From the IMG/VR virus record IMGVR_UViG_3300046463_000383, positions 1 through 42,340 of that record: a stretch of DNA of 42,340 nucleotides. One strand, given 5' to 3'. Under the pieces are notes generated by a model. It was not told where the DNA came from. It was given only the letters and a program-made list of their open reading frames with translations, and made no database searches. The stretch comes from a virus. The translations under genes were made by a program, and so were the position numbers. Shown here one piece after another: positions 128 through 27,025 of the stretch (position 1 is the stretch's first letter; every line of letters starts with the position of its first letter).

Positions 128-508
128 AGCCTCTACGGGGCAAGCCCCGGCTTAGGGGGCTTCGGCGGCTCACCTGCCTCGCCAGGACCTACCCAAGGCG
201 CGAGCCCGACCGGCGGTCCTGGGGCGGGAATATCCGGGAATACCACGGGCGCCGCCCCAAGCCTGTCCCAGGCTAGTACGGGGTTAGCTGGTCAGGTTGC
301 GAACGCCCAGACCCTCGCCAACCAGGCCCTCGCCCAGCAATCCCAGTTGCGGGGGATGACGGCCAACGCTTCGCCGACGATGCAGGGGATGACGGCGGCT
401 CCGGCCCCAACCCAGACCATATCTCCGACCGTCTTGGCGGGCCTTGCCTCGCTCGCCGGCGGCGGATACTCCGTGCCCCAGGTGACCGGATCAGGCCGGT
501 ATTCGTGA
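1..508 (+). CDS. Low-complexity virion protein, C-terminal part (continues from 41561)
   Basis: This is the C-terminal part of a protein that starts at 41561. Joining 41561-42213 to 1-508 gives 386 residues. The part here is rich in Gly, Ala, Pro, Gln and Thr, with a Met-rich stretch and many PSP/AGG turns, and has no recognisable enzyme motif. It is the last gene after the large ejection protein and directly precedes the ATP-grasp gene, with a GTGA overlap at 505-508. Position and composition fit a small internal virion or tail-associated protein; the function is unknown. It appears broken only because of where the circle was cut. Confidence 0.8.
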   Translation, partial: PQPTQQQQNILTQLRALLMGNTLGGMAPMGANTQFGSTMGFPSLYGASPGLGGFGGSPASPGPTQGASPTGGPGAGISGNTTGAAPSLSQASTGLAGQVANAQTLANQALAQQSQLRGMTANASPTMQGMTAAPAPTQTISPTVLAGLASLAGGGYSVPQVTGSGRYS

Positions 509-1836
509 CGAAGCTCCTCATCCTCGATCCGAACGGCAACGCCTTGGATCTTGCGGTTCGAGCCAAGCAGCATGGCCACGACGTTCGCCACTTCATCAAG
601 GACAGCCCGAAGTGCAAGTGGATCGGCGACGGCTTGGTTCAGGTGGTGCGGGACTATGAGCCGTTCCTAAAATGGGCGGACCTGATCTTCCTCGCCGATA
701 ACGTCAAATATGACGCGCCCAAGTTCGACAGCTACCGTCCCTTTCTCAAGGCCCATATCGTCGGGGGAACCCGCGAGATGGCGCAATGGGAACTCGACCG
801 CAGCATCGGCATGGATGTGCTGAAGAAGCACGGGATCAAGGTCCCGGTCAGCCAGGAGTTCAATAGCTACGACAAGGCGATCGCGTTCGTTAGGGCCAAT
901 CCGGTGCGCTGGGTCAGTAAGCCGTCCGGGGATGCGGACAAGGCCCTCTCCTATTGCTCAAACACCCCGGCCGACATGATCTACATGCTGGAGCGCTGGA
1001 AGAAGAAAGGGCAGCAGCGTGATTTTATCTTGCAGGAATTTATTCCCGGCTGCGAAATGGCGGTGGGGGGATGGTACGGTCCCTCTGGGTGGGCTACCGC
1101 CTGGTGCGAGAATTTTGAGTTCAAAAAACTCATGGATGGTGACATGGGAGTTGCCACGGGAGAACAAGGAACCGTCCTACGTTACGTTTCTCGTTCCCGA
1201 CTCGCCAAGATGGTTCTGGAGCCTCTGACCGAGACGCTGGAGGATGCCGGCTATTGCGGCTACATCGATGTCAACTGTATCATCGATGACGAAGGCAATC
1301 CCTGGCCGCTGGAGTTCACCATGCGACCGGGGTGGCCGACGTGGAACATCCAGCAGGAATTGCATCCAGGAGATCCGGTCCAATGGCTCGTAAAGCTCGC
1401 CCAAGGGCAGACGCCGCCGGTGACGGAGGACCTGATCGCAATCGGGGTGGTGTTGTCAATCCCGGACTACCCGTACAGCCACCTGACCCGCAAGGAGGTC
1501 TGCGGGTGCCCAGTGTATGGCCTGACTACCGCGCTATTGTCACACACGCATTTCTGCGAGGTGATGTTGTGCGAGTGCCCCGCGGACAAGGAGGGGAGCA
1601 TCGTAAAAACCCGGATGCCGTCCACGGCGGGCGACTACGTTCTGGTGATGAGCGCGGCCGGCGAGACGGTGTATCAGGCGAAGCAGACGGCGTATCGGAG
1701 GCTGAAGCGGCTGACGTTGCCAAACTCTCCGATGTATCGGACAGACATTGGCGACAGGCTCTCGAAGCAGCTTCCGAAGATGCAAAGGCACGGCTTCGCG
1801 ATGGGGATGGAGTTTTCGACCGCAGCGCAGCTCTAG
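505..1836 (+). CDS. ATP-grasp ligase resembling phosphoribosylamine-glycine ligase (PurD-like)
   Basis: The 443-residue product begins with a Rossmann-like strand (LLILDPNGNALDLA), as in the N domain of PurD. ATP-grasp features follow: SKPSGDADKALSYC (about 137-150), LQEFIPGCEMAVGGW, and the metal/ATP-binding region GYIDVNCIIDDEGNPWPLEF followed by TMRPGWP, which corresponds to the EFNxRxGDPE region of glycinamide ribonucleotide synthetase. The C terminus has the PurD_C-like MYRTDIGDR. ATP-grasp enzymes join a carboxylate to an amine through an acyl phosphate. The GTG start overlaps the preceding stop (GTGA). No other purine gene is present and the gene sits at the end of the virion operon, so the substrate may not be phosphoribosylamine. 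The fold assignment is firm; the substrate is unknown. Confidence 0.8.
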   Translation: MTKLLILDPNGNALDLAVRAKQHGHDVRHFIKDSPKCKWIGDGLVQVVRDYEPFLKWADLIFLADNVKYDAPKFDSYRPFLKAHIVGGTREMAQWELDRSIGMDVLKKHGIKVPVSQEFNSYDKAIAFVRANPVRWVSKPSGDADKALSYCSNTPADMIYMLERWKKKGQQRDFILQEFIPGCEMAVGGWYGPSGWATAWCENFEFKKLMDGDMGVATGEQGTVLRYVSRSRLAKMVLEPLTETLEDAGYCGYIDVNCIIDDEGNPWPLEFTMRPGWPTWNIQQELHPGDPVQWLVKLAQGQTPPVTEDLIAIGVVLSIPDYPYSHLTRKEVCGCPVYGLTTALLSHTHFCEVMLCECPADKEGSIVKTRMPSTAGDYVLVMSAAGETVYQAKQTAYRRLKRLTLPNSPMYRTDIGDRLSKQLPKMQRHGFAMGMEFSTAAQL

Positions 1837-6279: not shown

Positions 6280-6634
6280 CCGCAACGCCGAGGCTAAGCG
6301 CCAAGCGGCGATCGTGGCCTATGTCCGCTGGACTTGCCCGCAAGTCATCATCTTCGCGGTGCCCAATGGGGGCCTCCGCACCAAAGCGGAAGCCGCTCGG
6401 CTCAAATGGACCGGCGTCCTCGCCGGGGTCTATGACTTGGTCCTCGTGCTGCCGCGGGGTCGGACGGCGTTCTGGGAGACCAAGACCGACCGTGGCCGGC
6501 TTTCTGCGGATCAGCAAGCCTTTCGCGATCGTCTCGTCCTTCTCGGCCACCAGCATGCGGTGGTGTGCAGCATCGATGACGCCCGGCGGGAACTGATCCG
6601 GCTTGGCGTCGAGACTCGGGAGGCGGTGGCGTGA
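6269..6634 (+). CDS. VRR-NUC domain nuclease
   Basis: The 121-residue product has the VRR-NUC (virus-type replication-repair nuclease) pattern: VPNGGLRTKAEAARLKWTGV, GVYDLVLVLP with the first catalytic Asp, and FWETKTDRGRLSADQQAF with the ExK pair, then a C-terminal helix IDDARRELIRLG. These small PD-(D/E)XK enzymes cut branched DNA such as Holliday junctions or flaps. A role in resolving recombination or replication intermediates for packaging fits its place in the early operon. I chose the ATG at 6269, inside the end of the small membrane gene; an upstream start at 6251 adds six residues. The stop overlaps the GTG of the GcrA-like gene. Confidence 0.85.
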   Translation: MIPDRNAEAKRQAAIVAYVRWTCPQVIIFAVPNGGLRTKAEAARLKWTGVLAGVYDLVLVLPRGRTAFWETKTDRGRLSADQQAFRDRLVLLGHQHAVVCSIDDARRELIRLGVETREAVA

Positions 6635-7038
6635 CCTGGACCGAGGAGCTGATCCGCCAACTACGGAATCTAGCCGCCGCCGGCAAGACATCGGGTCAGA
6701 TTGCTACCGCCCTCGGGCTCACCAGGGGCGCTGTGATAGGCAAGATGAGCCGCGAGGGCATTCCCCTCGCCCGATTGCCCTTTTGGGGCTCCAGGGCCGC
6801 TCCAAAAAAGAACCAATCCCCCCTCCGGGGGCCTCCCGCCAAACCACGGGTCCCTCCGTTGCAGGGCCGCATGGGAGCTGGTCCGGCGATCATGGCGGTC
6901 ATGCCCTATCATTGCGAATGGCCTTTCGGCGACCCTGCGAGCGAGGATTTCCATTTCTGTTCGGAACCCAGAGATCCCTATGTCGAGCCGCCCTATTGCC
7001 CCAAGCATGCGGAGATCGCGGTCGTCAGGAGGCGTTGA
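6631..7038 (+). CDS. gcrA: GcrA-family cell-cycle regulator homologue
   Basis: The 135-residue product matches GcrA. The N-terminal HTH (1-45) reads MTWTEELIRQLRNLAAAGKT, SGQIATALGLTRGAVIGKMS, like the GcrA pattern of W..E....L..L...G.S...IA..LG.TRNAVIGK. The C-terminal zinc-like box has CEWPFGDP (C95), FHFC (C110) and PYCPKHA (C123, H126). In Caulobacter GcrA binds sigma70 RNA polymerase and methylated GANTC promoters to drive S-phase genes. This family is confined to Alphaproteobacteria, so the host is probably from that class. The GTG start overlaps the VRR-NUC stop. A phage copy could redirect host polymerase or mimic the cell-cycle state; that is inference. Confidence 0.88.
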   Translation: MTWTEELIRQLRNLAAAGKTSGQIATALGLTRGAVIGKMSREGIPLARLPFWGSRAAPKKNQSPLRGPPAKPRVPPLQGRMGAGPAIMAVMPYHCEWPFGDPASEDFHFCSEPRDPYVEPPYCPKHAEIAVVRRR

Positions 7039-7632: not shown

Positions 7633-8187
7633 ATGACCGACCACGAAAATAACAAAAGGCCACAACCATTTCAAGCCCTTGTTCGGTACGGGAACGAACC
7701 TACAACCCTCGAAGAGATGCAGTCGGCCTGGAAAGCGCGCCAGGCGCGTTATGCGGTAGCCGCCGAGTCGGCGCGGCAAGACGCAATCCGGCTGATTCCG
7801 CCTCCACCTCCAGAACCTCCTCCTGCCCCGGTCATGGGGGTTCTAGGCTCTGCTCTACCGCCTTGGACCGCCCCTCCTCCTCTGGCTGTCCTGTTCCCCA
7901 TTCCGCCGCGGGTCGAGGTCATACAGACGATGGTGTGCCGCCATTTCGGGATCGGGCGGCTTGACATGCTATCCCACCGCCGGTCGTCCGACATGGTGCT
8001 GCCGCGGCATCTGGCAATTTATCTGTGCAAGGTGTTAACCTACCGCTCTCTGTGTGAGCTTGGCCGATTGTTTCGGCGCGACCATTCGACAATCATGCAC
8101 GCCGTGGATCACATCAAGCGCCAGATGAAAAGCGACGAGGCGCTCGAAGCATCGGTCATGATGCTCACGGATCAGCTACGCCCATGA
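7633..8187 (+). CDS. DnaA domain IV (DNA-binding) protein without AAA+ domain
   Basis: The 184-residue product has a variable N terminus, a proline-rich linker (about 55-92) and a C-terminal domain (93-165) that matches DnaA domain IV: VCRHFGIGRLDMLSHRRSSD, VLPRHLAIYLCKVLT, and the DnaA signature CELGRLFRRDHSTIMHA. In DnaA this helix-turn-helix recognises DnaA boxes. The AAA+ and DnaB-loading parts are absent, so it cannot act as a full initiator. It may bind DnaA boxes on host or phage DNA and block or help initiation. Its stop overlaps the next gene, which looks like a phage replication organiser with repeated sites, so a joint replication role is likely. Confidence 0.88.
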   Translation: MTDHENNKRPQPFQALVRYGNEPTTLEEMQSAWKARQARYAVAAESARQDAIRLIPPPPPEPPPAPVMGVLGSALPPWTAPPPLAVLFPIPPRVEVIQTMVCRHFGIGRLDMLSHRRSSDMVLPRHLAIYLCKVLTYRSLCELGRLFRRDHSTIMHAVDHIKRQMKSDEALEASVMMLTDQLRP

Positions 8188-9365: not shown

Positions 9366-9617
9366 ATGACCGAATGGAAGGGACCTTTTCTCCTCAAAAA
9401 AAACAAAGGCAGACGGCGTTGCGTGCATCTATGGACCGGAACGGACACGGTATGTCGAATGTGGTCCACTGGGGGAATGAAGGCTACCCGGAAGTTTGCA
9501 GTTCAAGATCACAATGACGGCCTACCAACTTGCGCCATGTGTGCGGGGGTTTTCAGTCACAGTAGAAACAGGCTCCAATCGCCACCGTCACAAAATCGTG
9601 CTAGCGTCGTTCCATGA
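9366..9617 (+). CDS. Hypothetical cysteine-containing protein
   Basis: The 83-residue product has a basic N terminus and the pattern CVHLWTGTDTVCRMWSTGGM, FAVQDHNDGLPTCAMCAGVF. The spaced cysteines (C-x11-C and a C-x2-C pair) suggest a small metal-binding fold; short phage proteins with a similar DTxCRMxST...CxMC pattern are familiar, with no known role. GGAGG lies 5 bases before the ATG. The stop overlaps the lipoprotein start (ATGA). The C-terminal 30 residues after CAMC look less ordered and overlap the conserved 29-base element. Confidence 0.65.
   Translation: MTEWKGPFLLKKNKGRRRCVHLWTGTDTVCRMWSTGGMKATRKFAVQDHNDGLPTCAMCAGVFSHSRNRLQSPPSQNRASVVP
9576..9604 (+). promoter_or_regulatory. Conserved 29-base element, copy A
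   Basis: This stretch (core ACCGTCACAAAA, end GTGCTAG) matches 11162-11190 at 24 of 29 positions with no gaps. It ends 9 bases before the ATG of the lipoprotein gene; the other copy ends 10 bases before the ATG of the gene at 11201. Length and placement would suit a promoter, an operator or a translation-control site. I cannot assign -35 and -10 boxes with confidence. Confidence 0.5.
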
Positions 9618-10306
9618 CGGCAGCGGCGCGGTGTCTTTCCGTAGTTGCGATGGCTTCTCTTCTGTCGGCCTGCGGCTCCGGGGGAAACGACACCCCTGCC
9701 CCGTTCCCGACTCCGTTCCCCATGCCTGTCTCGTCAGGCTGGCAGTGCCGCTATTGCACCGGCGGCTCGGTGACGGGAGCCGGGGTCGTCACTCTTCCGA
9801 TCGGAGGCAGTTGCCCTGCTCCTAGAGCCGGGAACAATCCCCAGGACCCCAGCTTCAACGTCTCGGCCTGCCGCCATGTGGATTACGTCACCCGCGGCCC
9901 GATGCCGCTCAACGGATCGATCACGCTCGACTACACGGTCTCGGGGAACAACCCGGTGTTCGGCTACACGACCGCCGCCGGCAACACCGCCGGGGCTCCA
10001 CCCCAACTCACGCTGATGATCGAGCATGCGAACGACCAGACCCTCAGCAACGGCCTATGGCGTTGGGACAGCAACACGCGAATCCCTATCTCGCTTGGAC
10101 ATCAGCGTGTCACCGTCCCACTCAGCTTCTCGAATTGGGCCGCGGTGGCCGGATCGTCACCCGGAACGCAGGCGCAATTCAACGACGTGCTCGCCAACCT
10201 CGGCGCAGTCGGCTTCGTCCTCGGCGGCGGGGACTCGGCCGGACATGGCCTCTATCTGACTTCAGGATCGGCGGTCCTGACCGTAAACAGCTTCACCAGC
10301 CCATGA
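9614..10306 (+). CDS. Putative lipoprotein
   Basis: The 230-residue product has a lipoprotein signal: hydrophobic VVAMAS then lipobox LLSAC with the lipidated C20. The mature part starts with a Gly/Pro/Thr linker and then a beta-rich domain (ITLDYTVSGNNPVFGYTT, TLMIEHANDQTLSNGLWRWD, GHQRVTVPLSFSNWAAV, VGFVLGGGDSAGHGLYL) resembling a carbohydrate-binding-module-like jelly roll. It probably sits on the periplasmic side of the outer membrane. Phage lipoproteins often block receptors or DNA injection by related phages, so superinfection exclusion is a reasonable inference. Its stop overlaps the DpdA-like start. Confidence 0.75.
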   Translation: MTAAARCLSVVAMASLLSACGSGGNDTPAPFPTPFPMPVSSGWQCRYCTGGSVTGAGVVTLPIGGSCPAPRAGNNPQDPSFNVSACRHVDYVTRGPMPLNGSITLDYTVSGNNPVFGYTTAAGNTAGAPPQLTLMIEHANDQTLSNGLWRWDSNTRIPISLGHQRVTVPLSFSNWAAVAGSSPGTQAQFNDVLANLGAVGFVLGGGDSAGHGLYLTSGSAVLTVNSFTSP

Positions 10307-11034
10307 TGTTCCTGACCGGAATGCATCATCCGTCCGATGCCGGGAAGGTCAGGGGAGCCTTCGTCAGCGCCCACGCCCTTGCAAACCGCAGATCCTGGTT
10401 TCCGGCTAACCGATGGGTCATGGACTCTGGCGCATTCTCAACCATTCAACGCCACGGCGGATACCCGGAACCGGTCGAGGCCTACGCCTCCCTGATCCGC
10501 CGTTTCGCCGGCTGTGGGACTCTGCTCGCCGCCGTGTCGCAGGACTACATGTGCGAACCCTTCATGCTCGCCAAGACGGGACTGACCATCAAGGACCATC
10601 AGCGGCTGACGATCGAAAGATACGACGACCTGCTTCGATGCGACACCGCCGGCGTCAGGATTATGCCGGTCTTGCAGGGGTACGACCCTGCCGATTATGT
10701 TGCTCATCTGCGCGCGTATGGCGATCGGTTGACGCCCCGCATGTGGGTCGGGGTCGGCTCCATTTGCAAGCGCAACAGCTCGCCAGTCGCAATCGAGAAT
10801 GTCCTGCGCGCCATCAAGCGCGAACGTCCTGACCTACGTCTGCACGGCTTTGGCGTCAAGCTGACAGCGCTAAACTCCTGGCTTGTTCGGAAGTGTCTGT
10901 TTTCCGCCGACAGCATGGCGTGGTCGTTTGCGGCGCGTCGGGAGGGTAGGAATCAGAACGATGCGGCCGAGGCCCAGAGCTATGCCAAAAAGGTCTCTAT
11001 TATCAATCCTGACCCAATGCTTTTGACGTGGTGA
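10303..11034 (+). CDS. dpdA: DpdA-like DNA-guanine transglycosylase (TGT family)
   Basis: The 243-residue product matches phage DpdA proteins, relatives of tRNA-guanine transglycosylase that exchange guanine in DNA for a 7-deazaguanine. Visible motifs: MDSGAFS (40-46, D41 corresponding to the DSGGFQ Asp), QDYMCEP (80-86), VLQGYDPADY (123-132), WVGVGSICKRN (148-158), LHGFGVK (180-186) and SADSMAWS (201-208), whose D203 aligns with the nucleophile position. No folE, queD, queE or queC homologue is in the genome, so the base must come from the host queuosine pathway. The modification would protect phage DNA from restriction. ATGA overlap with the lipoprotein gene supports the start. Confidence 0.85.
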   Translation: MMFLTGMHHPSDAGKVRGAFVSAHALANRRSWFPANRWVMDSGAFSTIQRHGGYPEPVEAYASLIRRFAGCGTLLAAVSQDYMCEPFMLAKTGLTIKDHQRLTIERYDDLLRCDTAGVRIMPVLQGYDPADYVAHLRAYGDRLTPRMWVGVGSICKRNSSPVAIENVLRAIKRERPDLRLHGFGVKLTALNSWLVRKCLFSADSMAWSFAARREGRNQNDAAEAQSYAKKVSIINPDPMLLTW

Positions 11035-11038
11035 CGCA

Positions 11039-11152
11039 ATGGTTGAGCACAGCGTCAACAGCCTCCCCGCTCTTTACGACCTTCTGGAGACGGCGGGAGT
11101 GTTCGGTGTCTTATTGATCCTGATGGTCTGGGGAATTTCCAAGTGTCGATAA
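11039..11152 (+). CDS. Small membrane protein (37 residues)
   Basis: ATG at 11039, four bases after the DpdA stop, opens a 37-residue frame: a polar start MVEHSVNSLPALYDLLETAG, one transmembrane helix VFGVLLILMVWGI, and a basic end SKCR. Single-pass with the C terminus probably inside. No family recognised; could be a lysis or exclusion accessory. Confidence 0.5.
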   Translation: MVEHSVNSLPALYDLLETAGVFGVLLILMVWGISKCR

Positions 11153-11161
11153 GAAACGGCC

Positions 11162-11190
11162 CATTCGTAACCGTCACAAAAATGTGCTAG
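11162..11190 (+). promoter_or_regulatory. Conserved 29-base element, copy B
   Basis: Second copy of the element found at 9576-9604, with the same core ACCGTCACAAAA and the same end GTGCTAG, and no insertions or deletions. It ends 10 bases upstream of the ATG at 11201; the bases that follow (GGGG) could double as a weak ribosome site. Two copies at equivalent places before different genes argue for a shared regulatory role. Confidence 0.5.
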
Positions 11191-14011: not shown

Positions 14012-14806
14012 TTACGCCGCATCCCTCACTACAAACCCGGACCGGTCGTGCTTGGCCTTTGAACCTTTGGGCGATAGGCCGACCACGCAAGCGCCGCGAT
14101 TGTCCAAAAACCGCAAGTCGTGCTTGTCGCCGTCAATCACAACATGGCCAAGGTAGGTCTTTGGCTTTTCGCCATCGAACACCACGGCCACATTGCCGCC
14201 AGCCTCAAGAACGCGAACGCAATCCGCCTCGTTTGTTTCCGACCGTGAGAATGTCAGATGGTAGTTTTTGGGCATTTCTCCCCGAGCGTGGCGCAAGGCG
14301 CGCTTGACGCTCTTGGTATAGTCAACGAACTGGATGTTTGGATAGGCGGCAAACACATTCGGCATGGTCGCGCCCATAATGTGCTCGGCCCCTTTGATCG
14401 GAATACGCATACCTTCCCACGCGATATCCGTTGCGCCGTTCAAGCGAACGCAAAGCTTGAGGCCAAGGCGAGTCGCGCGCCTCTGAGCCGCATCTATGCC
14501 GCGGACCATATCCCGCATGAACGCCGGCCTATCGGCCATGAACAGCCGCGCCTTGCGTTGCCGTGAGGCGCGGACCGCGTTGATGCCTGTTTCGAGCTCG
14601 GCATTGCTGAGCATGGCGGCCTGGCCTGAGTACCAGCCAAGGCATAGCGCCAGGCAGCCAGGTGACGCGTGAGGACATAGGTTGCCTACGCCGGCGGTAT
14701 TAGCCGGGGCCATGTAATTGATCGCGTTCATGTACCCATATTCCCGCGCTTTGATCGCCTTAGCGCTATCCAACGAGAAAAATTGAGAGAATTGTCCCTT
14801 TGCCAT
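14012..14806 (-). CDS. GP88-like protein with CxnC motif
   Basis: The 264-residue product resembles the phage/plasmid GP88 (gene product 88) group. It has an N-terminal cysteine motif NLCPHASPGCLALCLGW (C44, C51, C55), the stretch CVRLNGATDIAWE, then NIQFVDYTKSVKRAL, YHLTFSRSETNE, NVAVVFDG, and an end with DLRFLDNRGACVVGLSPKG. Strand-helix alternation suggests an alpha/beta barrel. The function of the group is unknown; three cysteines near the N terminus could hold a metal or cluster. AGGAGG stands 7 bases before the ATG. It is the main gene of the leftward block and probably expressed with the two HTH genes. Confidence 0.7.
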   Translation of the reverse strand: MAKGQFSQFFSLDSAKAIKAREYGYMNAINYMAPANTAGVGNLCPHASPGCLALCLGWYSGQAAMLSNAELETGINAVRASRQRKARLFMADRPAFMRDMVRGIDAAQRRATRLGLKLCVRLNGATDIAWEGMRIPIKGAEHIMGATMPNVFAAYPNIQFVDYTKSVKRALRHARGEMPKNYHLTFSRSETNEADCVRVLEAGGNVAVVFDGEKPKTYLGHVVIDGDKHDLRFLDNRGACVVGLSPKGSKAKHDRSGFVVRDAA

Positions 14807-17235: not shown

Positions 17236-19195
17236 CCGCGAACGTCTGATCGGGGAACTGGGGACGAACCCGGTCCTCGCCCATGCGGTGTTCTTCAACG
17301 CTCGACATAAGAACAAGGATGCGCCGTTCCATAGGAGAATGGAGACCGATTTTCATAGCCAGATTCCCAATGTGTTGTGGCTGGTGTTCCGGGGGAGTGG
17401 GAAGTCCACGAAGTTCGAGGAGGGGGCGGCGCTGGAGGTCGGGTGGCAGAAGGTCAAGAACCTGTTGATATTGGGGGAGAGCGAGACCCGGGCCGCGGAG
17501 AGATTGGCGGCGATCAAGCACATCATCGAATACGACGAGCACTTCCAGGCGCTGTTCGAATGCGAGCCGGGGTCCGTGTGGACCGACACCAGGGCGATCA
17601 CGTCTACGGGCGTGTACATGCAGGCCGCGGGACGAGGGCAGAGCCTTAGAGGGGTGAAACATCTGGATCACCGGCCGGACCTGATCCTGCTGGATGACAT
17701 CGAGGACAAGGAGAGCGGAAGTGTTGCGACACCGGAAGCACGGAAGAAAACTCGGAGCTGGCTCACCGGGACGGTCATACCGGCGATGGCCCCCGGAGGT
17801 AGAATGCGCATGGCGGCGACGCCAATCCATCCGGATGCTCTTGCGCCGACTCTGTCGCGCGCTGACCAGTCTTGGACTACCAGGGTCTACCCCGTCCTCT
17901 ATAAGGGCAGAAGTGGCGAGTGGCATAGCTCGTGGCCGGATCGATTCCCCGTAGACGACGTGATGAGGCAGTGGGAGTCCTACAAGGAAATCGGCCAGGA
18001 AGAGGACTTTGTACAGGAGTTCCTCTGCCAGGCCGTCGATCCGGCCTCACAGACGTTCACCGAGGGCATGTTCGTCATCGAACCCAGGGTGAGGTCCTGG
18101 CACCCGGTGTACGCGGTGTACGACCCCGCCAGGACCACTGCGAAGACCTCTTGGACCGCCACCACGGGAAAAGTGGTCGCGTCATGGGTCGGAAGCAAAT
18201 TGGTGGTGTGGGAGGCGGAAGCCAAAAAATGGATGCCGGACGAGATCGTGGATGATATCTTCAAGGTGAATGATATCTATTCCCCGATCTGCATTGGGGT
18301 TGAGGAGACGGGACTCAATGAATGGCTCCAGCAACCGATCAGGACCAGGCAGGCCCAAAGTGGCGTATTGGTTCCGCTGCGGGCGTTGCAAGCACCCAAA
18401 GGTAAGCTGGATTTCATCCGAGGACTCCAACCTTATTTCTCAGCTAGGGAAGTTATCTTTGCAAATGAAATGCCCGAACTGCGGAAACAACTTCTCGGAT
18501 TTCCAACTGGACACATCGATGCCCCCAATGCACTTGCCTACATGCTGAGAATGAAAATGGGACAGCCGATCTACGACAACTTCCGAGAGGAGATGATCGA
18601 TGAGGACGCAAGACTCAAACCGAAACAAACATCATGGATTCTTCTCAATTCAAACAACCAGATCACTACAGCCGTACTTGTTCAAATGCAGGCCGGCCGA
18701 ATGGTTGTACTCTGGGACGCCATCATGGACGGAGACCCTGGGACGGTCCTTGCAGATATCCTCGGATCCGCCGGAACCAAAATCGGAAAGGATCTGACCA
18801 ATGTTCGATTCCTCGCATCACAAAAACACTTTGATGAATTTTCTCTCTACGGACTCAAGGCAGGAGCCAAAAAACTGGGACTTGCGCTTGCTAGAGGCGG
18901 CGCAGTCGATATTGGAAGAGAGGAAATCCGCAGTCTTATGCGGAGAAGCGCTCACGGAAGAACAGCTATCGGCGTTCATCCCGATGCTTCGTGGACTGTC
19001 CGGGCGTTTGCCGGGGGATTCAATCGCGAGCCAGATCGAGTCCAGCCATCAGATAACGCCTACGCCGTCCTGATCGAGCCGCTGGAATCGTTCGCCTCAT
19101 GGTTGCGGATCGGAACTCCCGGCAACCTAGACGAGCGGCCCAATTTCGCCTATACCTCAGACGGTCGGAAATACGTCTCCGCCCTGCCGAGGTAG
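17228..19195 (+). CDS. terL: Terminase large subunit
   Basis: The 655-residue product has the packaging ATPase and nuclease layout. Walker A is FRGSGKST (54-61), Walker B LILLDDIED (152-160), followed by a coupling region MRMAATPIHPD. The RNase H-like nuclease domain starts near AVYDPARTTAKTS (first acidic residue) with CIGVEETGLNEW as the next acidic motif. The enzyme pumps DNA into proheads and cuts the concatemer. GGGAG stands 6 bases before ATG 17228; a longer frame to 17045 would overlap the preceding gene entirely. Codon style changes after about 18400, with many GGA, AGA and T/A-ending codons, which may reflect recombination or overlapping coding. Confidence 0.9.
   Translation: MDDRERLIGELGTNPVLAHAVFFNARHKNKDAPFHRRMETDFHSQIPNVLWLVFRGSGKSTKFEEGAALEVGWQKVKNLLILGESETRAAERLAAIKHIIEYDEHFQALFECEPGSVWTDTRAITSTGVYMQAAGRGQSLRGVKHLDHRPDLILLDDIEDKESGSVATPEARKKTRSWLTGTVIPAMAPGGRMRMAATPIHPDALAPTLSRADQSWTTRVYPVLYKGRSGEWHSSWPDRFPVDDVMRQWESYKEIGQEEDFVQEFLCQAVDPASQTFTEGMFVIEPRVRSWHPVYAVYDPARTTAKTSWTATTGKVVASWVGSKLVVWEAEAKKWMPDEIVDDIFKVNDIYSPICIGVEETGLNEWLQQPIRTRQAQSGVLVPLRALQAPKGKLDFIRGLQPYFSAREVIFANEMPELRKQLLGFPTGHIDAPNALAYMLRMKMGQPIYDNFREEMIDEDARLKPKQTSWILLNSNNQITTAVLVQMQAGRMVVLWDAIMDGDPGTVLADILGSAGTKIGKDLTNVRFLASQKHFDEFSLYGLKAGAKKLGLALARGGAVDIGREEIRSLMRRSAHGRTAIGVHPDASWTVRAFAGGFNREPDRVQPSDNAYAVLIEPLESFASWLRIGTPGNLDERPNFAYTSDGRKYVSALPR
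18801..19073 (+). CDS. Possible overlapping gene inside the terminase gene
   Basis: A 90-residue frame in the +1 phase to terL, with AAAGGA 8 bases before ATG 18801. The middle reads like a normal soluble helical protein: NWDLRLLEAAQSILEERKSA, LCGEALTEEQLSAFIPMLRG. In this stretch terL uses unusually few G/C-ending codons while this frame's third positions are more G/C. The ends are less convincing, and terL shows altered codon use from 18400 onward, before this frame begins, so overlap is only one explanation. Confidence 0.3.
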   Translation: MFDSSHHKNTLMNFLSTDSRQEPKNWDLRLLEAAQSILEERKSAVLCGEALTEEQLSAFIPMLRGLSGRLPGDSIASQIESSHQITPTPS

Positions 19196-19201
19196 GATAG
19201 A

Positions 19202-19984
19202 ATGAGAAGGCTGCTTGCCGCTTTAGCGCTCCTCCTGCTGGCGGCCTTCCCCGCCCATGCCCAAATGTCCGGGGTCAGAGTGGTCGCAACTTGCGGGACC
19301 CCATCCCCCTGGCCCGCCCTCGCCACCAGCCCATTGTCGCTCGCCTCCAGCGCATGGCTGACCGTCGATACCAACTACACCCTTTGCACCAGCGCCGTTA
19401 TCACCGGATCGATCACGGCCAACAGCTCGATCGTCAGTTGGGGCGGCGGCGTCCTCGGCGCCATGTCGAACTACGGCACCAGCCCCGGCGCAGTCCTCGT
19501 CCCGGGCGTCAACGCCTTCATCACCAACACCCCAGCTTTCAACCTGACCCAGGTCGCCAGCACCGCCCTCGGCGCGATCACCACCTACGGAACCTCGCCC
19601 GGCGCAGTCAACGTCCCAAGCGTCAACGCCTATGTGACCAACCTGGTCGGCCCAGGCGCCAATAGCGCATCGCTGGCGCCCACCGGGAAGACCGACACCA
19701 GCGCCATCACCGTCCTCTCAGCCAGCGGCGACGGCGCCCAGCACGAATATATGACCGGCATCCAGATTGGGCGAACAGACGCTGGCACAGCCGCAATCAC
19801 CGCAGCAGTCACCGACGGAACCCTGACCCTGACCTATGTCGTCCCGAACAACGGCGGCGGCGGCGGCAACAACGTAACCTTCGCCAAGCCGTTCCAATGG
19901 GCGCTGAACCACGCCGTCACCTGCGCCTCGTCAGGCAGCGTGACTACGTTCTACTGCTATGCCCAGGGATTCAACGCCCCGTGA
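19202..19984 (+). CDS. Secreted protein with internal repeats
   Basis: The 260-residue product has a clear signal peptide (MRRLLAALALLLLAAFPAHA, cleavage after AHA). The mature part is Ser/Thr/Ala-rich and beta-like, with an internal duplication: NYGTSPGAVLVPGVNAFITN and TYGTSPGAVNVPSVNAYVTN, about 40 residues apart. The C terminus has VVPNNGGGGGNNVTFAKPFQ and two cysteines. Genes for secreted proteins are unusual between terminase and portal. It could be a periplasmic or surface protein made late, or a virion decoration. No family recognised with certainty. Confidence 0.7.
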   Translation: MRRLLAALALLLLAAFPAHAQMSGVRVVATCGTPSPWPALATSPLSLASSAWLTVDTNYTLCTSAVITGSITANSSIVSWGGGVLGAMSNYGTSPGAVLVPGVNAFITNTPAFNLTQVASTALGAITTYGTSPGAVNVPSVNAYVTNLVGPGANSASLAPTGKTDTSAITVLSASGDGAQHEYMTGIQIGRTDAGTAAITAAVTDGTLTLTYVVPNNGGGGGNNVTFAKPFQWALNHAVTCASSGSVTTFYCYAQGFNAP

Positions 19985-21210
19985 AATGCCTCGCCTTAGC
20001 ATTCCTGGCTCTCGTCGGCCTTTCCACGCCGGCGATGGCGCAATCCGAACCCGTCCTCGGATCGGGCGTTTTCGAAGGGGGCGCAGTAGGTCATGGCGGC
20101 TGCGAAGGCCCAGGAGATGTCGTCGCCAACGCCAAGGCCTGGTACGGGCTCAGAGCCTATAGCAACGCTCAATGTTCGGGAACGGCAAAAGCGGTCAATC
20201 TGACCCGCCTCAGCGACAGCACCGCCTGCGACTTCGACATTGCCGTCACCGGGGACTTCGGCACGAGCGATTCCGGTTGCTCCCTCGGCGGCGGCCTGAC
20301 CGCATCCGCCTTCGCAACCCAGGACGCCACCGCCACCTGCACCATCTCGACCACCACGGCAACCTGCACCGGAGCGTCGAGCACCCCCCACCAATACAGC
20401 ACGATCACCGGGGCTGGGCTGACACAGCCCTGTTGGGCCGCAAGCGTCGGGACGTTTACCGGAGGGGCAGGGGCAGTCACCCTCGGAGGAACCGGCACAA
20501 GCCCGTGCGGCACGGTCGGGGTCGGCGAGACGCTGACGTTCACCTATGGCCTGACCGTCAGTACATTATACGATCAGAGCGGGGCGCTTTCCTGCACAGG
20601 ATCGACAACATGCGCCATGAATCAAAATGGGTCTGGCGTAACTGTTAAGCTATTGCCGTCATGCCTCAATGCCAAGCCGTGCATATATTTTGGTGGAGGG
20701 CAGTATTTAACAACGACGTCGCTCTCGGCTCTTAGTGGAACGACGTATCGATCCTTCAATATGGTGCTGGCGACACTCACATCTGCATCAAACCCGGCGC
20801 CATACACGAATGTTGATAATAGCAACACCAATTTAACTGGCTTTGTCATCTTTCATCTGGCGGCGCACACAATTGTCGCCGATGCATTCAACAATGCGTC
20901 TGGTAGCGGGACCGCCACATCGGCAACGCTCGCCAATGGCGTATGGGGAGTCCCAGGAGGTATTTTCGCATCGGCAATAAGCCGTACATCATACCTGGAC
21001 GCCGTCGCCGCCACGACGGACACCGGGAGCATTACGGTCGCAGCAACCAATGAAATCAGTATGGGAGGGTACCACAAGAACGGCGGTAATTTTAATATGC
21101 TGACCGGATACATGACGGAGGCGGGCCAGTGGGGAGTCCTCAGCGGAGCGAACATGACCTCTCTCTGCCACAATGACTATGTGTATTGGGGAACGGCAAC
21201 ATCATGCTGA
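19981..21210 (+). CDS. Secreted protein with arabinofuranosidase/lectin-like domain
   Basis: The 409-residue product has a signal peptide (MKCLALAFLALVGLSTPAMA). The mature part has SLRAY-like WYGLRAYSNAQCSGTAKAVN, a Cys-rich middle, then STLYDQSGALSCTG, LNAKPCIYFGGGQYLTTTSL and a concanavalin-type beta region ending NFNMLTGYMTEAGQWGVLSG. The TWYDQSG-like motif is typical of the alpha-L-arabinofuranosidase B-type domain found in many phage proteins. It could bind or cut surface glycans. The GTG start overlaps the preceding stop. The second half (from about 20550) is clearly richer in A/T than its neighbours, a sign of acquisition. Confidence 0.7.
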   Translation: MKCLALAFLALVGLSTPAMAQSEPVLGSGVFEGGAVGHGGCEGPGDVVANAKAWYGLRAYSNAQCSGTAKAVNLTRLSDSTACDFDIAVTGDFGTSDSGCSLGGGLTASAFATQDATATCTISTTTATCTGASSTPHQYSTITGAGLTQPCWAASVGTFTGGAGAVTLGGTGTSPCGTVGVGETLTFTYGLTVSTLYDQSGALSCTGSTTCAMNQNGSGVTVKLLPSCLNAKPCIYFGGGQYLTTTSLSALSGTTYRSFNMVLATLTSASNPAPYTNVDNSNTNLTGFVIFHLAAHTIVADAFNNASGSGTATSATLANGVWGVPGGIFASAISRTSYLDAVAATTDTGSITVAATNEISMGGYHKNGGNFNMLTGYMTEAGQWGVLSGANMTSLCHNDYVYWGTATSC

Positions 21211-24934: not shown

Positions 24935-26296
24935 ATGGCCGGCATTAACTATAGCACCTCGTTCTCTTCGGACGTTGAAGCCTTTATCGCCAACGAGACC
25001 CTGCCCCTCGCCCAGAGGATGCTGGTCTCGTTCCAGTTCGGTGATCCCCTCACCCTCCCGAAAGGACGCGGCGTCACCTACCAGGCCGCCCGATGGAACC
25101 GGGTGCCCCTGCCCTACGCGCCATTGAGCGAAGGCGTTCCTCCGGTCGGCGAGAGCATGACGGTGACGATGGTCTCGGCAACCGCGCTCCAGTGGGGTGA
25201 CAAGATCACCCTCACCGACGTGACCGAGATGACGATCAAACATCCCGTTTTCAATATCGCCAAGGAACTCTGCACCCTGGCGGTCGCCGAGACCCTCGAA
25301 CGCAACACCTTCAACAACCTGATGGGCGGCACCCAGATCAACTACGTCAACAGCCGTGGGGCAAGGGCCTCGCTTCTGGTCGGCGACGTCCTCAACCTGC
25401 ACGAGATCAACCGGGCCTTCGGCGCCCTTCAGACCGGCGGGGCCTGGATGTTCATGGGCCCGAACGAAACCGACGTGAAGCAGAAGGCCGACGCCGGGGG
25501 CGTAGCTGGCCAGCGCGCCTCGGACAATCCCGCGGGCATGCCGCACTACACCGCCATCATCCATACCCTGGCGGCCCAGGACCTTCGCGAGAACAGCACC
25601 TTCGTCCTCGCCGCCTCCTACAGCGACATCAACCGGCTCTACAACTATGAGATCGGGGAATTGGGCGGGGTCCGGTTCTGCACCTCCAACATGGTGCCGA
25701 CCTTCACCGGCTACGCGCAGTCCGCCGGAACCGGGGGAACGGCCGGCTCTCTCGCAGGCCCGACCTACTACATCATCGTCACCGGCCAGGACACTCAGAA
25801 CCAGTACGAGTCCTATATCATGTCGGTCTCGGCTGCGATCTCGGTCACCGGGCCGAATGGATCGATCTCGCTGACCACCCCCAACGTCTCTGGTTACACC
25901 TTCAACGTCTATGTCGGAACGACCACCTCTCCGGTGAATCTGGGCCTCTCGGCTTCTGGACCGACCCAGGGACCGCTCGTCGGCCAAGCCACCCAGCTTC
26001 CGGCCAACACCGCAGTCGTCATCACCGGCGTCGGCCTGGCTCAGGTTCCGCCGGCTTATCCCGGCAACACCACCGGCATCACCGTCTATCCCACCTACAT
26101 CTTCGGCCGCGGCGCCTATGGGCAAGTAATGCTCGATGAAATCAAGTACACTTACTTGGATAAAGCCGACAAGTCGGACAGCTTGAATCAGCTTCGTGTC
26201 GTCGGCTGGAAGGTGATGTACGGGACGATTCTCCTGAACCAGCTGTTCTTCATGCGGATAGAAAGTACGTCAGCCTTCGCCGCAACCTATGGCTAA
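24935..26296 (+). CDS. Major capsid protein, N4-gp56 family, with Ig-like insertion
   Basis: The 453-residue product matches the N4-gp56 capsid family: GVPPVGESMTVTMVSATALQ then WGDKITLTDVTEMTIKHPVF, NIAKELCTLAVAETLERNTF, the region MPHYTAIIHTLAAQDLREN, and YEIGELGGVRFCTSNMVPTF. After that comes an inserted beta-rich domain of about 274-370 (TYYIIVTGQDTQNQYESYIM, NVSGYTFNVYVGTT) that looks like an Ig or fibronectin-type fold and may be displayed on the capsid surface. The family fold then resumes with YPTYIFGRGAYGQVML. HK97-like; forms the icosahedral shell. GAGGT precedes the ATG. Confidence 0.88.
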   Translation: MAGINYSTSFSSDVEAFIANETLPLAQRMLVSFQFGDPLTLPKGRGVTYQAARWNRVPLPYAPLSEGVPPVGESMTVTMVSATALQWGDKITLTDVTEMTIKHPVFNIAKELCTLAVAETLERNTFNNLMGGTQINYVNSRGARASLLVGDVLNLHEINRAFGALQTGGAWMFMGPNETDVKQKADAGGVAGQRASDNPAGMPHYTAIIHTLAAQDLRENSTFVLAASYSDINRLYNYEIGELGGVRFCTSNMVPTFTGYAQSAGTGGTAGSLAGPTYYIIVTGQDTQNQYESYIMSVSAAISVTGPNGSISLTTPNVSGYTFNVYVGTTTSPVNLGLSASGPTQGPLVGQATQLPANTAVVITGVGLAQVPPAYPGNTTGITVYPTYIFGRGAYGQVMLDEIKYTYLDKADKSDSLNQLRVVGWKVMYGTILLNQLFFMRIESTSAFAATYG

Positions 26297-26498
26297 TCCT
26301 GACGGGCATCGACTCTTCAACAAGGAGGAGGTCCTCCAGTGCTGGGACAGGTTCAACGCCACCCAGCGGCGTGACCTCCTCAATTGTTGCTACGACGAAG
26401 AACGTCAGTGGATCAAGGAACACGATGAATGGCGGCGGGAACACGGGCAACCGCAGTCCCCGTCTATGTCGGGCAACTGGTTCAGAACGGATCGATAA
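26289..26498 (+). CDS. Hypothetical small protein
   Basis: The 69-residue product (MANPDGHRLFNKEEVLQCWD) is charged and helical, with RRDLLNCCYDEERQWIKEHD. It overlaps the end of the capsid gene by 8 bases and the start of the next gene by 70. No family recognised. Possibly a small head-completion protein, on position only. Confidence 0.55.
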   Translation: MANPDGHRLFNKEEVLQCWDRFNATQRRDLLNCCYDEERQWIKEHDEWRREHGQPQSPSMSGNWFRTDR

Positions 26499-27025
26499 CC
26501 ACTCCGGTTCAGTTCTTCGACGTTGGCTTGCCGAGTGGATATTCGAGGTTCAACTTCTACTTCACAGGGCTTACAGTGACGGCGGCGGGAATGAGCACAG
26601 GAGACAACATCGCCGCGGCGCTCCAGCTCAATGGCGGCTTCGTCTGCGATAACATCAACAACGACAGCTACTACGATATGAACACGGCCGCGACGGCCTC
26701 CCTGATGACCCTGACCCCGCCGCAAACCGACATTGCTCATGGCCCCGATTTTCGCGCAGTCGGCCTGATCGACATCTACCCCGGAGACGTCAATAACTGG
26801 CCGCTGCTCACCGTGACCTATTCGTGGGCGCAGCCAAGCGGTGGCGTCCTGGTCCTTCAGGGGCTGACCGGATGGATCGTCGATCCGGGCTCCACGACCG
26901 GCCCCGCCGGCCCCGCGCCCGCCACCATGCTAAGAGTGCTGCCGCTGGGTCTTGGAGACTGCAACCCCCCGACCTCCGGGGAAACGATCAACACCGGCGA
27001 CTGGCGGCTATACGCCTTCAATTGA
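26429..27025 (+). CDS. Putative capsid-associated or decoration protein
   Basis: The 198-residue product is beta-rich (VPVYVGQLVQNGSITTPVQF, SRFNFYFTGLTVTAAGMSTG, GVLVLQGLTGWIVDPGSTTG) with few charges, and has no signal peptide. Position directly after the capsid gene suggests a head decoration or head-tail joining protein. AAGGA lies about 10 bases before ATG 26429. It overlaps the preceding small gene by 70 bases. No family recognised. Confidence 0.6.
   Translation: MAAGTRATAVPVYVGQLVQNGSITTPVQFFDVGLPSGYSRFNFYFTGLTVTAAGMSTGDNIAAALQLNGGFVCDNINNDSYYDMNTAATASLMTLTPPQTDIAHGPDFRAVGLIDIYPGDVNNWPLLTVTYSWAQPSGGVLVLQGLTGWIVDPGSTTGPAGPAPATMLRVLPLGLGDCNPPTSGETINTGDWRLYAFN

Follow-up and report, generated by a model that had tools for sequence, protein, structure and literature searches.

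A phage that encodes an enzyme resembling the DNA-modifying protein DpdA, but none of the genes that make a base for it, raises three questions: whether the enzyme is a DpdA, where its substrate comes from, and whether the phage DNA is thereby protected. The window considered here, the whole stretch of viral DNA that was analyzed, is 42,340 nucleotides long (IMG/VR record IMGVR_UViG_3300046463_000383) and begins and ends with the same exact 127-bp repeat; this indicates that the genome is circular and complete, with a length of about 42.2 kb. A profile search finds a dpdA-type gene at a single locus in this genome, with the following layout:

9584–9604, plus strand: first copy of ACCGTCACAAAANNGTGCTAG, a 21-bp repeat and candidate promoter/operator; the ATG of the lipoprotein gene follows after 9 nt
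9614–10306, plus strand: putative lipoprotein of 230 amino acids, lipobox LLSAC in the translation; its stop overlaps the dpdA start
10303–11034, plus strand: stand-alone dpdA gene, encoding a 243-residue TGT-fold enzyme of the DpdA family (PF23859, 133 bits; phrog_1279; AlphaFold2 model; Foldseek match 7ui4)
11039–11152, plus strand: peptide of 37 amino acids with one hydrophobic, probably membrane-spanning, stretch, from a reading of its sequence
11170–11190, plus strand: second copy of ACCGTCACAAAANNGTGCTAG, 21 bp, 10 nt before the ATG (11201) of the next ORF

The dpdA frame runs from an ATG to a TGA, and its 243-residue translation contains every motif quoted in the first-pass annotation (MDSGAFS, VLQGYDPADY, VGVGSICKRN, HGFGVK, and SADSMAWS). 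An alternative in-frame ATG at 10057 would give 325 amino acids and overlap the upstream gene; the start at 10303 forms an ATGA overlap with the upstream stop and lies at the same position as in relatives. IMG/VR holds 31 relatives of the protein with 52–71% identity, and their alignment has about 50 invariant columns. In pairwise comparisons of the gene with five relatives, pS is about 0.7 against a pN of 0.23–0.30, which indicates purifying selection on the protein; synonymous sites are near saturation in these pairs, so that no precise pN/pS ratio is claimed. The frame is not a chance one, because it is matched by PF23859 and phrog_1279, has 31 relatives in IMG/VR, and shows the synonymous excess.

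Family membership is supported by both sequence and structure, although the two are not equally discriminating. The Pfam family PF23859 ("DpdA") matches the protein with 133.2 bits (E = 1.2e-38), exceeding its curated cut-off of 27 bits, and the PHROG family phrog_1279 ("queuine tRNA-ribosyltransferase") matches with E = 2.3e-60, while PADLOC and NCBIfam hold no model that matches it. The AlphaFold2 model, computed from 31 sequences (the window protein and relatives), has a pLDDT of 93.2 and a pTM of 0.90. A sequence search of the PDB returned no homologue and the fold search alone gave matches: Foldseek ranks 7ui4, a DNA preQ0 insertase DpdA, first (E 1.9e-6), followed by tRNA TGTs. This bacterial DpdA has the same TGT fold, but its structure comprises 413 residues against 243 here, with 16–18% identity. 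VIA-align superposes the model on 7ui4 with a Z of 17.5 and an rmsd of 3.5 over 228 residues, yet the whole TGT-fold group scores a Z of 17–19 over about 229 residues, and the fold alone therefore cannot tell a DpdA from a TGT. Sequence profiles, unlike the fold, do separate the protein and place it on the DpdA side rather than with tRNA TGT. In hhalign comparisons, the family profile reaches 91% (E 9e-7) with the DpdAs of phages 9g and CAjan taken as a pair, and 0.4% with tRNA TGTs from four host genomes. The residues that bear on catalysis fall in four motifs:

10420–10437, plus strand: MDSGAF with Asp41, aligned by hhalign with Asp72 of 9g DpdA, at the DSGGF position of tRNA TGTs
10540–10557, plus strand: QDYMCE with Asp81; Asp81 and YMCE are invariant in the 31 relatives
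10843–10854, plus strand: HGFG with His181, by alignment the equivalent of the DpdA-specific His196 of phage 9g; invariant in 31 sequences
10903–10926, plus strand: SADSMAWS with Asp203, aligned by hhalign with Asp215 of 9g DpdA; putative nucleophile

Residues D41, S42, A44, and F45 of the first motif and D203, S204, W207, and S208 of the last are invariant in the 31 relatives, so that both aspartates aligned with 9g D72 and D215 are retained. Asp81 would, by motif order, correspond to the DEC aspartate of TGTs, although hhalign does not align it. Histidine 196 of 9g DpdA, which has been named as characteristic of DpdA (PMC6884629), is the H of its HGFG and aligns with His181 of the window protein. 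This histidine sets the protein apart from DpdA2, which is defined by the missing His196; PF23859 and the profile made in this analysis both fail to match the nt-1 record. Assignment as a tRNA-modifying TGT (PF01702) was likewise rejected, as the window has no PF01702 match, the hhalign similarity to host TGTs is negligible, and the protein is too short C-terminally, D203 being followed by 40 residues and the equivalent aspartate of host TGTs by about 100. Thus, the annotation of a DpdA-like TGT-family enzyme is borne out by PF23859, the 9g/CAjan profile match, the fold, His181, and the aspartates, and membership in the DpdA family is close to certain.

Within the family, the protein belongs to a subfamily that is distant from the validated DpdAs, since in HMMER searches the 9g, CAjan, 7-11, Dp-1, and nt-1 proteins are missed by PF23859 and by the profile made in this analysis alike. 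The Rosebush-type protein of Hedgerow is barely touched by either, while hhalign shows clear motif-level homology of the subfamily to the 9g and Hedgerow proteins. Because PF23859 misses the validated DpdAs of 9g, CAjan, and Dp-1, an annotation with this family is no proof of DNA modification. The validated 9g and CAjan enzymes (dG+ and dPreQ0) have in common with the window protein a TGT-type core, DSGAF, the His196 of HGFG/HAFG, and the aspartate of DSSSW/DSMAW, but they are longer (306–317 residues against 243) and beyond the reach of HMMER, and their phages make their own preQ0, for which the window phage has no genes. Like the window phage, Pantoea phage MED16 and Salmonella phage 7-11 carry dpdA without preQ0 synthesis genes, and a host precursor has been proposed for both (PMC8306585, PMC6884629). 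The 7-11 DpdA is missed by the profiles of the window subfamily, and that of MED16 has been grouped with proteobacterial homologues (PMC8306585).

Nearly all phage records with a relative of the window DpdA (390 of 399) are mycobacteriophages, and among the relatives the Orion-type proteins of mycobacteriophage clusters B1 and K are the best studied. The subfamily profile matches the proteins of Fang and MacnCheese with E values of 1e-53 to 1e-57; Fang gp20 (cluster B1) and MacnCheese gp42 (cluster K) have the same motifs and 35–41% identity to the window protein. Phage Orion is in the genus Pegunavirus, as is Fang, in which, as in the window, QueD and QueF were not found. Unlike the likely alphaproteobacterial host of the window phage, the host of Fang and MacnCheese is Mycobacterium, reported to lack a preQ0 pathway (PMC6884629). 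Two phages with alphaproteobacterial hosts, Sinorhizobium phage phiLM21 (gp25) and Rhizobium phage RHph_TM3_3_3 (EVB37_081), encode proteins with 51–53% identity to the window DpdA. Both have dpdA without preQ0 genes, and QueC is absent from the phiLM21 record; they are otherwise unrelated to the window phage, and the neighbors of dpdA differ (DNA methyltransferase, PAPS reductase).

Six-frame searches of the window for QueC, QueD (PTPS), QueF, and TGT detected none of them, although positive controls were found, and none of the 52 window ORFs scanned against Pfam matched a preQ0-pathway family. The absence of folE, queD, queE, and queC stated in the first-pass annotation therefore holds. QueC is also missing from all 30 related IMG/VR viral records searched, whereas the control phages 9g, CAjan, Dp-1, and nt-1 were all matched (4/4). 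A phage with the full preQ0/G+ pathway (groups 1–2 of Hutinet et al.) was rejected, as the folE, queD, queE, and queC set is not in the window; the genome, which its terminal repeat indicates to be complete and which has dpdA without preQ0/G+ synthesis genes, fits the DpdA-only group 3 of these authors. Searches of the window for Rfam families and tRNAs found none. The identity of the host bears on whether a precursor could be borrowed, and here one further gene is informative:

6631–7038, plus strand: phage-encoded GcrA cell-cycle regulator

A protein with a DnaA C-terminal domain is encoded near it (7633–8187). The GcrA gene and the rhizobial relatives point to a host that is probably alphaproteobacterial. 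A related dpdA occurs in four cellular genomes (one acidobacterial and three rhizobial assemblies), three of which have both QueC and QueD and all of which have TGT. As a prophage gene in the host class, related dpdA exceeded the cut-off in 1 of 385 genomes, which was the centre genome itself. A strong, full-length QueC is present in 53 of 142 sampled alphaproteobacterial genomes; many candidate hosts could thus supply preQ0, though not all of them. The proposal that the base comes from the host pathway is accordingly plausible for this phage, given how common QueC is in the likely host class, but it is not new, having been published in 2019. Nor can host preQ0 explain the subfamily as a whole, because the mycobacteriophages that dominate it infect a genus reported to be without the preQ0 pathway (PMC6884629).

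The dpdA gene is not part of the inherited core of this phage. Eight records belong to the same lineage (portal 52–63% identical; five of 40–44 kb and three fragments of 13–30 kb), and none of them has dpdA (0/8), although the profile used does recover the gene of the window. Conversely, the ten phages with the nearest dpdA relatives have almost no other gene in common with the window. Across 37 dpdA loci, no recurrent gene partner was found, the top family occurring at 6 of 37 (dpdA and its overlapping frames excluded). Judged by this distribution, dpdA is a mobile accessory gene. Two other genes of the window were considered as partners:

14012–14806, minus strand: GP88 family protein (PF17338, 5.5e-42) with the cysteine cluster CPHASPGCLALC
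505–1836, plus strand: PurD-like ATP-grasp protein of 443 amino acids with weak Pfam GARS_A and GARS_C matches

GP88 occurs in 4 of 20 phage records with dpdA and in 0 of the 8 lineage records without it, numbers too small to mark it as a partner. The ATP-grasp gene was rejected as a partner: it is present in 6 lineage records that lack dpdA and missing from 19 other dpdA phages, and is thus independent. It is a core gene of the window lineage (61–66% identity in six relatives) and lies beside structural genes. In two lineage relatives, G425 (25257–26585) and G426 (18821–20149), the matching frame contains one in-frame TAG, which may reflect a pseudogene, a sequencing error, or readthrough.

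The immediate surroundings of dpdA are as the first-pass annotation described them, the gene lying directly after that for a putative lipoprotein (LLSAC) and before that for a 37-residue hydrophobic peptide. The ATGA overlap of the lipoprotein stop with the dpdA start suggests translational coupling, and from the gene overlap it is likely that the lipoprotein, DpdA, and membrane peptide are expressed jointly. The two copies of ACCGTCACAAAANNGTGCTAG bracket this operon as a direct repeat, which has 2 matches in the window and 0 in 100 shuffles; with one further match among all IMG/VR contigs, it is essentially private to the window genome. The constant distance to a start codon suggests a promoter/operator rather than an insertion scar. 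The further claim of a host-takeover and protection cassette fares poorly, as the 37 loci share no recurrent neighbor and the lipoprotein has hardly any kin: no Pfam family matches it, and IMG/VR yields one weak, partial relative.

DpdA-only phages have precedents. Hutinet et al. (2019) listed 76 of them, Orion included, proposed host preQ0 as the source for the class, and raised the question of whether singleton DpdAs have diverged (PMC6884629). In the DNA of phage 7-11, dADG amounts to 0.02% of G, and in that of Orion, which is the tested phage nearest to the window subfamily and whose host has no preQ0, there is no 7-deazaguanine (PMC6884629). In MED16, dADG reaches 0.13% of G, and the restriction enzymes tested were unhindered (PMC8306585). 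CAjan, which makes its own preQ0, differs: modification requires its DpdA, and the modified DNA is protected from restriction enzymes (PMC6884629). The step from modified DNA to blocked restriction is therefore weak for phages of the window type; the first-pass reading is in essence the published idea, the protective part of which is so far unconfirmed for DpdA-only phages. The composition of the window does not settle the matter. Its 6-bp palindromes (e.g., CCATGG, GGGCCC, and CTGCAG) are under-represented, with an observed/expected ratio of 0.62, more strongly than in four lineage relatives. However, reading such avoidance as a sign of unprotected DNA was rejected, since validated modified phages avoid sites as strongly (observed/expected for G-rich 6-mers of 0.58 in 9g, 0.49 in CAjan, 0.58 in Hedgerow, and 0.61 in the window).

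The best explanation, and a fairly probable one, is that the window DpdA inserts a host-derived 7-deazaguanine into DNA. What the analysis shows directly is that the protein belongs to this family, has the TGT fold with its conserved residues, and is maintained by selection, and that the gene is an accessory one in a genome without preQ0 genes; the mechanism built on these results is conditional. One member of a lineage otherwise without dpdA would have gained a DpdA-only gene horizontally. The enzyme very likely retains TGT-type base-exchange chemistry, in which D203 would act as the covalent aspartate that displaces guanine, while D41 and H181 would aid binding and activation of the incoming 7-deazaguanine. 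The substrate is most likely DNA. As the phage has no preQ0 synthesis genes of its own, the base would be preQ0 or preQ1 that the host makes or salvages. By analogy with the other DpdA-only phages that have been measured, the level of modification is probably low.

The strongest competitor, unlikely but deserving of attention, is an active enzyme of a functionally diverged subfamily with a substrate unlike that of 9g-type DpdA, either another purine analogue or RNA. The mycobacteriophage majority with its reportedly preQ0-less hosts, the unmodified DNA of Orion, the distance of the subfamily from validated DpdAs, and the question raised by Hutinet et al. about singletons all speak for divergence, and the PVLQG of the window protein is closer to IVQGG of tRNA TGTs than to CFHAG/CFHFG of 9g/CAjan. 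However, the profile likeness is to DpdA and not to tRNA TGT, the C-terminal part of the latter is absent, and the DpdA histidine is invariant. It is improbable that dpdA is a passenger gene of negligible activity in this phage, kept through recent transfer and not benefit: although its absence from the rest of the lineage, the lack of a conserved gene partner, and the at most 0.13% of G modified in measured DpdA-only phages would fit, the purifying selection across relatives with their invariant columns and the intact operon with its own bracketing repeat do not. Heavy modification that blocks restriction, combined with a cassette formed with the lipoprotein and the membrane peptide, is very improbable, for despite the protection seen in CAjan and the co-expression suggested by the gene overlap and bracketing repeat, measured DpdA-only phages have traces of modification or none, the dADG of MED16 did not stop the enzymes, and dpdA elsewhere is linked to neither gene.

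Insertion of a host-derived base thus remains the preferred reading; DpdA-only phages have been known since 2019, when the idea that they borrow host preQ0 was also put forward (PMC6884629). Taken singly, the window dpdA is one more example and introduces no new principle. Its interest lies in the setting, as dpdA without partner genes is carried by hundreds of phages, and this genome, which is probably complete and whose host is likely to be an alphaproteobacterium, contrasts with the mycobacteriophages of the same subfamily: many alphaproteobacteria make preQ0, while the hosts of the mycobacteriophages are reported to make none. It is conceivable, if doubtful, that this compact subfamily, found mostly in phages of preQ0-less hosts, uses a substrate other than preQ0, be it some different modified purine or a target in RNA. 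If so, what Pfam calls DpdA would be a branch with a function of its own.
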